Assembly (NCBI GenBank): GCA_002718095.1
Contig: PBDP01000003.1
Coordinates: 32,523-38,157 of the forward strand
From: Chloroflexota bacterium
GTDB taxonomy: Bacteria > Chloroflexota > Dehalococcoidia > Lucifugimonadales > UBA826
Reading direction: 5' to 3'
Length of the DNA stretch: 5,635 bases
Shown piece after piece: positions 210 to 3,157 of this stretch (position 1 is the first letter of the stretch; each line of letters starts with the position of its first letter). The notes below the pieces were generated by a model. It was not told the origin of the DNA and did not search any database. It saw nothing but the letters and a program-made list of their open reading frames with translations. The position numbers and the translations under genes are program-made.

Positions 210-1811
210 TTAATCAACAATAGGCTGGGCAATTATCCAAAGGCTTATTCCAGTATAAAAAACCATCAAAAAAAGCATTGGGTATTGAGTTTTTATTGCC
301 AATTTATGATTTGATAATTTGCGTATAGAAATTAAGTGTGCAATAAAAACAGAAAATATATGACCTCCAACTAATGCTATCACAGAAAATATCCAAGCAA
401 ATTTTGCATTGATGATAGATATATTGGGAGTATATTGAACAGTATTAAATAGATTCCAATCAAAAAAACAAACTATATTTCTGGCACTAGGAATATCAAC
501 ACTAGAACATCCAAAAGGGTCGGATGCTAGCGGTATAATTTGTTGCCCCGTGATAAGTAAAAAGGATATATAGTGTGACAGATTATATGCAAGAGCAATA
601 GGGACAAGAGAAAACACAAATGTTTTAATAGCTTCTTCTTTAGAGATTTTATTTTTTGATATATTAGAAATATTGGAGCAAACTAAAACATACATACTAA
701 AAAATAATATAGGAAAAAAAATAATCCCGATTGTTTTTATAGTCGCAAAAGTAGAAAATGGAAGACGATCAAAAATCGGCCATAAAGTATTCTGAATAGA
801 TATCCAAGTAGAGGTTTCAGCAAATCCATCAAAAGTTACTGTCGCTAATGCTGAAATGTGAAAGGCAACCAAAGCCCATGTAACTTTTTCTCCTCGAGCA
901 AGTCCTGAAGCAAAGGGCCTAAATGAAAATTTCCTAAGTTTATTCGGTGCCAACTCCCAACATTCATAACAATCAACACAGTCCTTTAAAGAGATATTTA
1001 AGCAATTCGATGTACATGCATCACAAATAACTTTTTCGCCTTTAGGAGTTTTGACTCTAACTTCTGTCATAGAGAATCGAGAAAAAAGTGAAAATAAAAC
1101 AAAAAACGGATCTGCGTTTCGTAACCAAGTATGTCTACCAAAAATATACATCCCTACTATGGAATATATAGAATACAAAATTAATGAAATCGATAATATT
1201 TTTGGTGTTGAGCTTCCAAAGTAAACATTCTCAAACCAGGCAAATAAAAAGAACGCTATAAGGGCAGGCCAAGCATCTATATTATTTGGCCAAGAATAAA
1301 TTGGCTTTAAATCTTGTTTAAAAATGTTTTCAAAATATTTAAACGCCATACTCCAAGGGTTTACTACAACCCATAAATTACCAAATATGGCAACTATATA
1401 TCCAAACCCAACCCACCATATTATCCACACAAAAGTTGGAGAAAAGTTATCTAAAGCATTTTTTGTTCCTAAAAACCCTGTCAAAATAGTTAAAATAAGT
1501 AAAAGAATAGACAATATGCTTAAAAAAAATTTAGCTCCTTTTAGGAATATTCTAATCCTGTCTTTATTCCATATATCTAATTGGAAATAATCGTCACTTG
1601 AATTTGCCTTTCTAACAAACCAGCCAATAATCACAAAAGATAAAGCAACCGTAGCTGACGCCCCAAAAACAAAATAGCTTAGTGGAATTGGAAGATCATA
1701 TCTTTCTCCAAATCCATGAGCAAAAATAATCGTTGTATTTAACATAGTAAATATTAATACTAAAAATACAACGATTATTTTTAACTTCAACCCTCTCACA
1801 AAAAAACTCAT
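210..1811 (-). CDS. Polytopic membrane protein, 'fenitrothion hydrolase'-like family, with a six-Cys loop
   Basis: A 533-residue integral membrane protein with about 11-12 hydrophobic segments, near residues 10-31 (signal-like), 41-65, 92-113, 125-150, 180-198, 204-224, 310-330, 355-378, 395-421, 466-494 and 508-530. Directly after the first segment comes HGFGERYDLP, which I remember from a family that pipelines often call fenitrothion hydrolase; the name comes from memory and the physiological role is unclear. The long soluble loop at 246-308 carries six cysteines (263, 266, 270, 278, 281, 284), a possible metal or Fe-S site. A later helix contains AYNLSHYISF, followed by ITGQQ, as in my recollection of the family. 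The ATG at 1811 overlaps a TAA (1813-1811) that ends the His/Glu-repeat frame. The only ribosome-site-like motif is a weak AGAAG about 10 nt upstream, so translation probably depends on coupling. The fold is confident; the function is not. Confidence 0.85.
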   Translation of the reverse strand: MSFFVRGLKLKIIVVFLVLIFTMLNTTIIFAHGFGERYDLPIPLSYFVFGASATVALSFVIIGWFVRKANSSDDYFQLDIWNKDRIRIFLKGAKFFLSILSILLLILTILTGFLGTKNALDNFSPTFVWIIWWVGFGYIVAIFGNLWVVVNPWSMAFKYFENIFKQDLKPIYSWPNNIDAWPALIAFFLFAWFENVYFGSSTPKILSISLILYSIYSIVGMYIFGRHTWLRNADPFFVLFSLFSRFSMTEVRVKTPKGEKVICDACTSNCLNISLKDCVDCYECWELAPNKLRKFSFRPFASGLARGEKVTWALVAFHISALATVTFDGFAETSTWISIQNTLWPIFDRLPFSTFATIKTIGIIFFPILFFSMYVLVCSNISNISKNKISKEEAIKTFVFSLVPIALAYNLSHYISFLLITGQQIIPLASDPFGCSSVDIPSARNIVCFFDWNLFNTVQYTPNISIINAKFAWIFSVIALVGGHIFSVFIAHLISIRKLSNHKLAIKTQYPMLFLMVFYTGISLWIIAQPIVD

Positions 1812-1981
1812 TAAGGATAAACTTCTAAAATTAATAATAAACGCTCTTCATGCTCTTCATGACCTTCATGCTCTTCATGACCTTCATGACCTTCATGCTC
1901 TTCATGACCTTCATGACCTTCATGCTCTTCATGACCTTCATGACCTTCATGACCTTCATGCTCTTCATGACCTTCATGACC
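1811..1981 (-). pseudogene. Out-of-frame C-terminal His/Glu-rich tail of the cupredoxin gene
   Basis: This minus-strand frame is open for 56 codons. It reads Gly, then fifteen HEG or HEE triplets (nine HEG, six HEE), then RLLLILEVYP and TAA. It has no start codon of its own, because a TGA (1984-1982) lies immediately upstream, so it can only be translated by a shift from the preceding cupredoxin frame. Three things argue that it is real coding sequence: the HEG/HEE frame is stop-free across the array, the ending looks like a final beta strand of a cupredoxin-type domain, and its TAA overlaps the downstream ATG as TAATG, the same junction seen at 2618 and 4346. His/Glu runs like this usually bind or buffer Ni, Zn or Cu. 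A +1 shift (skipping one base) or a net 1-bp deletion upstream would join the two frames. Whether this is a true mutation, programmed frameshifting or an assembly error cannot be seen here. Confidence 0.6.
1844..1978. repeat. Tandem array of fifteen 9-bp units
   Basis: Fifteen perfect-length 9-bp units come in two forms on the plus strand, ctcttcatg (six copies) and accttcatg (nine copies), differing only at their first three bases. Units often follow a ctc-acc-acc order, giving a 27-bp higher-order period. At the right edge a sixteenth unit (1979-1986, acctcatg) lacks one T and is 8 bp. Nine-base units keep the reading frame whatever the copy number, so the array can change length without breaking a protein; the 8-bp unit cannot. 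There are no spacers, so this is not CRISPR. On the minus strand the three frames read His-Glu-Gly/Glu, Met-Lys-Val/Ser, and a frame with TGA in every unit; the cupredoxin gene above enters the last of these. Confidence 0.95.
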
Positions 1982-2618
1982 TCATGGCTGGCGGAAGCCC
2001 ACTAGTTATTCTAACTTTTTCATCAGAAACAATTTCCCATTCAATTAATGTTCCCGGTTTAACAATGATAGGATTTGGATCATATGATTCACCATTATTG
2101 TTTGTTACTTTCACTATAGCCACTCCAGACAATCCTTGATCAGAAGAAACTATAATTTCGGCATAGTTTTTATGAGTTATATGATTGTGATAAGGGATAG
2201 TTTTGTCTTTCATGTCTTTAGGAACTTGATAAGAATATTTATCCCCTTTTTCTAAAGTGGCTGATTCAAAAAGCGCCGCATGGTCGCTATGAGAAAAGTG
2301 CTCTTCTTCATGAACAGTTATCCTAAAACGTCCCGTGGCATCTGCAAGAAACTCTAAAACAGTTTCGTGATTAGCAATTACATCTTTTTGTATATCGTAA
2401 CCATGAAGGTGTATTTGTAACGATTCATTTGAGTTAAAAACAAGTTTTAATTGGTCTCCTTTATTAACTTTTATTTTCTCCTGACCACTTACAACATTTC
2501 CCTCTTTAATATCGACAATTATTTCTTTTTCGGTTATTTCTTGAGTTGCATCATTACAAGAAATTCCTAAAAAAATTATTGTCGATAAAATTAATAAAAT
2601 AAGATCTCTAATTTTCAT
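1974..2618 (-). CDS. Cupredoxin-like probable lipoprotein, apparently frameshifted at its 3' end
   Basis: A 214-residue exported protein. Residues 5-20 are hydrophobic and end at Cys21 in FLGISC, an imperfect lipobox because Gly occupies -3, so a lipid anchor is likely but not certain. Residues about 32-105 resemble a small cupredoxin-type beta domain, with IHLHGYD at 69-75 and GRFRITVHEEEH at 96-107. Residues 115-170 look like the C-terminal half of a plastocyanin-type fold, but the YHNHITH stretch (143-149) has Asn where a type 1 copper Cys is expected. Residues 178-210 look like the N-terminal half of another such domain (SYDPNPIIVKPGT), cut off before its Cys-His-Met ligands. The frame ends at TGA inside the 9-bp array. 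The ATG overlaps the upstream TAA as TAATG, with AAAAGG 7 nt upstream. It probably handles copper or another metal outside the membrane; the last part is an inference. Confidence 0.75.
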   Translation of the reverse strand: MKIRDLILLILSTIIFLGISCNDATQEITEKEIIVDIKEGNVVSGQEKIKVNKGDQLKLVFNSNESLQIHLHGYDIQKDVIANHETVLEFLADATGRFRITVHEEEHFSHSDHAALFESATLEKGDKYSYQVPKDMKDKTIPYHNHITHKNYAEIIVSSDQGLSGVAIVKVTNNNGESYDPNPIIVKPGTLIEWEIVSDEKVRITSGLPPAMRS

Positions 2619-3157
2619 TAAATCGCCTTTTCTGCTTTAGATTGTTTTACCCAAGCTCTAATAGAAAGCCCTAAAATTATTAACAATCCAACTAAAAATA
2701 TCAACGTTAAAATAGGGATTATGGGATTTGGGTCATGAACCTCTATCTCGTAAAATCCCTTAGCTTCCCCATCGGGAGTGCTAATATTTAATTCTATTTG
2801 CCATATTCCTTTTGTTTCTATTGGGAAATCTACTTCATAGAAAGTTGGATCCATAACAGTGTTTAACATTTTCAAAGGTCCAATTTGTAGTTTATCTGGA
2901 TCTGATTCGTATACTTTTATATAAACTATCGCATCATCATAGCTAATATCTTTATCAAGGTTTTTAACGTATACGGCAAAATGAATAACACCACGTGTTG
3001 GTGTTTCGGGAACCGTGCCCAAACCAATCTCATATAATTCTGTTATTTGTTTCTTATATGTCTTAACAGAACCATTGGCTTCTATCAGATAAGGAAAGGA
3101 AAATATTAAAATAAGAGTGATTGCTAATGTATATAACTTAAAACTACAGCCCGACAT
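2618..3157 (-). CDS. Membrane-anchored FixH/YtkA-like beta-sandwich protein
   Basis: A 179-residue protein with an N-terminal signal or anchor (hydrophobic 8-26), an extracytoplasmic beta-rich domain at about 37-142 and a single C-terminal transmembrane helix (146-168) followed by a basic tail. The domain has the layout I associate with FixH/YtkA and CopC-type domains: [17 protein letters not shown], an alternating strand (HFAVYVKN), a D/P-rich middle, then [10 protein letters not shown] and GFYEIEVHD. No cysteine or clear metal-ligand cluster is visible in the domain. The ATG at 3157 overlaps the end of trpB by 14 nt; an AGG 8 nt upstream and the signal sequence that follows support this start. 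The TAA overlaps the cupredoxin ATG, so the two are almost certainly co-translated. A role as partner or assembly factor for the cupredoxin and membrane protein is plausible but inferred from position only. Confidence 0.75.
2626..2631 (-). promoter_or_regulatory. Ribosome binding site of the cupredoxin gene
   Basis: AAAAGG lies 7 nt upstream of the ATG at 2618 and inside the end of the FixH-like gene. It supports this start and shows that the TAATG junction can use both direct initiation and coupling. Confidence 0.6.

Follow-up and report, generated by a model that had tools for sequence, protein, structure and literature searches.

The analysed stretch of DNA (the window; 5,635 nucleotides, C3:32523-38157) originates from the 10-contig, 1.44-Mb genome of a marine SAR202 bacterium. 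Three consecutive genes of its minus strand are considered here, encoding a small membrane-anchored protein, a cupredoxin and a multi-spanning membrane protein, and a 9-bp tandem array lies at the boundary of the latter two (Table 1). The first of these genes gave no match in Pfam or NCBIfam. For the 214-aa cupredoxin ORF, the Pfam models Cu-oxidase_2 and Cu-oxidase_3 were matched above the cut-off and Cupredoxin_1 below it.

Table 1. Coordinates of genes, predicted domains and repeat features in the window.
Feature	Position	Strand	Basis
Upstream small membrane-anchored gene, named FixH-like in the original prediction	2618..3157	-	ORF list; similar ORF in relatives
Cupredoxin lipoprotein gene, annotatable part, 214 aa, ...SGLPPAMRS*	1974..2618	-	ORF; Pfam matches; SAR202 orthologues
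Outer cupredoxin domain (N-terminal; residues 30-104), containing HLHGYD and GRFRITVH	2307..2531	-	pLDDT mostly >85; nitrosocyanin alignment
Putative inserted second cupredoxin-like domain, residues 113-207	1998..2282	-	HMMER match order to 9cck; confident model strands
Frame-change zone, if a single small indel	1974..1984	-	Exhaustive indel enumeration
15 x 9-bp array, (HEG/HEE)15 in the +1 frame, predicted disordered loop of the outer domain	1844..1978	-	TRF, translation, pLDDT
RLLLILEVYP plus stop TAA; predicted last beta-strand of the outer domain, conserved, residues 259-268	1811..1843	-	Homologues; model; alignment
Multi-spanning membrane protein of the HGFGERYDLP family, downstream; its start overlaps the tail stop (TAATG)	210..1811	-	ORF; gene order

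The array was detected by TRF at 1846-1986 with a period of 9 and 15.8 copies, and at a higher order with a period of 27, 5.0 copies and 94% match. Its 141 bp are near-perfect and self-complementary. The cupredoxin ORF terminates within the array, and a second minus-strand frame, +1 relative to this ORF, runs from 1981 through one G and 15 HEG or HEE units, for which only two unit types are used, CATGAAGGT and CATGAAGAG. It continues as RLLLILEVYP and ends in a TAA at 1813-1811 that overlaps the ATG of the membrane gene at 1811. The tail thereby counts 15 His and 21 Glu. TAATG junctions are present at 2618 and 4346 as well, and the re-derived frames agree in all of these points with the original prediction. 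Since the repeat period is a multiple of 3, a stop-free run across the array is weak evidence alone. The pattern [LIVMF]xx[LIVM][ED]V[YRH]P followed by a stop was found in 9 of 200,000 random 170-nt windows of the same genome, so it is the conserved end motif and not the open frame that goes beyond chance.

The comparison with related genomes allowed us to assign the tail. A cupredoxin match was obtained in 14 of 16 genomes of the same family (the window's own included), and complete orthologues were available from 11 other genomes. All 11 are read as a single open frame from an SGLPP-like region through a His/Ser/Glu linker to a conserved end of the form L-x-x-[LIV]-EV-[YR]-P (LIxLEVYP, LFRIEVYP or LLIVEVRP). 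In a wider set, the same strand ends each of the 20 distinct two-domain homologues that could be classified by pattern, as LIxLEVYP or LGxLEVxPR after a linker of 7-34 residues rich in His, Asp and Glu; a distant relative with a different ending (L022) is left out of this count. Single-domain homologues from other phyla show the same last strand with a variable, often His-rich loop just before it. An alignment of 17 homologues has 26 invariant columns, and every one of them, tail positions included, is retained in the protein that results when the two frames are joined (P0001). Gene order points in the same direction: in 19 of the 20 homologous loci inspected, the HGFGERYDLP membrane gene comes after the cupredoxin gene, and a similar small ORF is located upstream in many relatives. 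The protein shares with the SAR202 two-domain cupredoxins the HLHGYD, GRF..T.H, HxH.xH and SG.P motifs, the final L..LEVxP and the neighbouring membrane gene, with the single exception that HNHI replaces HDHM. The named relatives are from SAR202/Chloroflexota genomes. No relatives were found by a single-protein scan of genome contigs or by an alignment-based scan of viral contigs.

Because full-length orthologues continue past SGLPP to the same end, the His/Glu tail and the LEVYP strand are very probably the native C-terminus of the upstream cupredoxin gene, forming an expanded loop of its outer domain. The proposal that a native C-terminus belonging to the upstream gene has been cut off by a frame change is thus borne out, and the ending at SGLPPA that would speak against it was seen in none of the 20 two-domain homologues. 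The relatives also carry the expected His/acidic segment before their stop, but the TAATG overlap is not conserved at this junction. Another reading takes the array as a non-coding regulatory or attenuator element and lets the protein truly end with SGLPPAMRS. The annotatable ORF does stop there and the RNA folds strongly, but behind the array comes a conserved last strand, which ends at the start of the next gene, its end motif is as rare as given above and no orthologue ends at SGLPP, which makes a non-coding array extremely unlikely.

To place the tail in the protein fold, we refer to an AF2 model of the frame-joined protein, based on an alignment of 18 sequences (pLDDT 80.7). With a pTM of 0.46, the relative placement of the two domains in this model is uncertain. 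AlphaFold without an alignment delivered a poor model (pLDDT 45.7). In the AF2 model the outer domain (residues 30-104) has pLDDT values mostly above 85, the array is disordered (about 42 for residues 221-250) and residues 259-267 form a confident strand (mean of 94 over 261-268). Foldseek alone gave weak, partial matches. VIA-align, in turn, aligned the model with nitrosocyanin (1ibz_A; Z 11.8, rmsd 1.6 Å, 84 residues) and with the Cupredoxin_1 structure 4hcf (Z 11.1), and the structural alignment is in accordance with the Greek-key beta sandwich and the strand order of cupredoxins. The nitrosocyanin alignment extends from 31 to 268 of the model and from 2 to 112 of the chain (111 residues, the whole chain) and reaches both C-termini, where these values are the ends of the aligned range only. 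The N-terminal domain accounts for residues 30-104 and the alignment for only 84 residues; most simply, the aligned part therefore comprises residues 31-104 and the last strand, so that the tail would complete the outer domain. Sequences of the single-domain homologues, with GRFP..H, a His-rich loop and the same last strand, suggest likewise.

The original prediction had regarded the His/Glu run as a terminal metal-sequestering arm. We dropped the free C-terminal arm, since the model and the single-domain homologues assign the last strand to the N-terminal cupredoxin domain and the run instead becomes a loop in front of it. As modelled, the repeat would be an expanded loop at the position of the copper-ligand loop of cupredoxins. 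The strand after this loop exists only in the frame-joined protein; the truncated form of 214 aa would therefore lack the last strand of its outer domain.

The inner domain (113-207) looks like a second cupredoxin with its halves in reversed order, i.e. a possible circular permutation. This is suggested by weak HMMER matches to 9cck_A, in which profile positions 161-211 correspond to residues 311-365 of the chain and positions 121-139 to residues 368-386. Taken together, the gene from 2618 to 1811 would encode one two-domain, probably lipidated cupredoxin without the blue-copper Cys. Between the penultimate strand GRFRITVH and the last strand LLLILEVYP, its outer domain appears to accommodate a second domain of cupredoxin-like type together with a His/acidic linker, and in this lineage the linker was probably enlarged to (HEG/HEE)15 via the 9-bp tandem array with its 27-bp higher order.

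The loop preceding the last strand lacks the Cys of a type-1 blue copper site; the sole Cys of the protein is C21, after the signal helix. With no Cys free for a blue-copper site, any metal site would have to rely on His, with H70, H72 and H103 together with loop His as candidates by their position. Because the loop sits where cupredoxins keep their copper ligands, it would probably gather and buffer Cu(II) or Zn(II) beside this predicted site. An analogue that works similarly is CopI, a His-rich cupredoxin-like copper-tolerance protein in which disordered His-rich segments are added to a cupredoxin and bind Cu(II) (PMC13308877). By this analogy, the loop described here may gather and buffer copper. 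CopI differs by its His-Cys-His-Met green site and by the N-terminal location of its His-rich segment (PMC13308877). In the inner domain, residues 144-149 (at about 2189-2172) read HNHITH and not HDHMxH, with Met found in 13 of 13 sequences of alignment A1. Judged from sequence, this is a possible loss of a predicted metal ligand.

The recorded sequence would be out of frame through an indel of one or two bases at the upstream edge of the array. An exhaustive enumeration showed that any single 1-base deletion or 2-base insertion that opens the frame falls within the 11 bases 1974-1984, the first and degenerate array unit, in which the longest run of identical bases is two. The origin of such an indel can be judged from the genome as a whole. 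It contains 12,996 Ns, mostly single, which occur in about half of its 1-kb bins and presumably stand for ambiguity codes. Within long ORFs (n=10,722) they are distributed over codon positions 1, 2 and 3 as 2,014, 1,018 and 7,690 (about 72% in third position). This is the pattern of merged strain polymorphism, and the genome apparently represents a consensus in which strains were merged. The window, however, corresponds to exactly one N-free block, so that the local sequence is not visibly strain-mixed. In a screen against G002 orthologues, which is blind to tails as short as that of the cupredoxin, 7 of the 364 genes containing Ns showed frameshift-like splits, compared with 1 of the 240 genes without Ns; the reverse comparison gave 2 of 644.

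The near-perfect, self-complementary array puts both assembly and replication at risk of error. Since the assembly looks strain-merged, we consider an assembly or consensus error in this metagenome genome the most likely, and indeed a probable, source of the indel. Against it stand the N-free window, the rarity of frameshifts in N-free genes and a similar His/Asp/Glu array in the ZnuA gene of the same genome, which was assembled in frame. A genuine recent frameshift is a less probable but serious candidate, in which one or two bases were lost or gained by slippage or repair at the self-complementary array edge and the truncated protein is probably inactive. The N-free region without visible strain mixing is compatible with it, and the hairpin-prone array is a plausible mutation hot spot: the minus-strand array transcript (1900-2010) folds better than shuffled sequences, with a z of -4.2, because the array units contain the palindrome TCATGA. 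Moreover, this protein departs from 11 family members at six positions that are invariant among them, for instance by M147I next to the inner-domain HxH. But all remaining strongly conserved residues are preserved and there is no additional stop, so any loss would need to be very recent, and the resemblance of the assembly to a merged consensus also weakens the case for a mutation in the organism.

Two regulated alternatives had been proposed in addition. In programmed +1 ribosomal frameshifting, the ribosome would shift at ATG-AGG-TCA-TGA, stimulated by the array hairpin, giving a short and a long form. If this were true, a used +1 shift would mean a choice between a short lipoprotein without the last outer strand and a long form with a metal-gathering loop of 15 His. 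The offset of +1, the stop right at the shift zone and the strong RNA structure predicted downstream agree with this proposal. Nevertheless it appears very improbable. TCA-TGA is not slippery, since by codon-anticodon rules a tRNA that reads TCA in the P site is unable to pair anew with CAT; the RNA structure arises incidentally from the palindromic TCATGA of the units; and in the orthologues, which show neither a comparable break nor a conserved slippery site, a single frame covers both linker and strand.

The second proposal, reversible switching by phase variation of the array copy number, is even less credible. A tandem array does sit at the frame break, but its units of 9 and 27 bp retain the frame at any copy number, whereas phase-variable simple repeats have units that are not multiples of three, and 1974-1984 contains no run of more than two identical bases on which switching could rely. 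Switching by simple sequence repeats was dropped on account of the 9-bp units. The mechanism behind the break is thus an ordinary one overall, and it is the loop expansion and the domain architecture that are modestly interesting.

In an annotation based on gene calling, the protein would be entered in truncated form, without the last strand and the His-rich loop. With about half of this SAR202 genome looking strain-merged, frameshifts in it need careful reading. Beyond that, we are dealing with an apparently uncharacterised SAR202 cupredoxin family, in which the ligand loop accommodates whole domains and, recurrently, expanded His/acidic repeats and which may be relevant for metal handling in dark-ocean bacteria. 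Among the papers searched, none joins SAR202 with cupredoxin, and a search combining cupredoxin with the suspected name of the membrane gene found nothing.

Several known groups resemble the protein in part. The closest are the SAR202 two-domain orthologues, located beside trpB and the HGFGERYDLP membrane gene, which share architecture, neighbourhood and C-terminal strand but have linkers of 7-34 residues in one open frame. The single-domain HLHGYD cupredoxins (Cupredoxin_1-like; Nitrospinota, Proteobacteria and Chloroflexota) have the same outer domain with HLHGYD and A.GRFP...H, followed, as in the window protein, by a variable, often His-rich loop and a C-terminal L.YLEVxPR. They lack the inserted second cupredoxin, and their loops mostly comprise 5-42 residues without a 15-unit array. 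Structurally, the outer domain with its last strand is matched best by nitrosocyanin (PDB 1iby/1ibz). Nitrosocyanin has a Cys ligand, whereas the only Cys of the window protein is the lipidation-type C21.

Repeat expansions of this kind are not restricted to the window. The ZnuA homologue of the same genome (G000:C4:6462-7667, minus strand; L045; 401 aa), a protein of a different fold with a ZnuA-type His-rich loop, carries a long in-frame 9-bp His/Asp/Glu array of diverged copies. In relative G010 (L010), a perfect 9-bp SGH array is found in the first His linker (1802-1848) instead, an independent expansion. Further arrays were detected with 15 bp in L098 and with 12-33 bp in L124. In six other loci (L021, L023, L026, L086, L089 and L111), a different domain and not a second cupredoxin is inserted in the same loop; the two inserts that were scanned (L089 and L111) are weakly DUF4399-like, below the Pfam cut-off. 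The outer-domain loop thus seems to accept different inserts.
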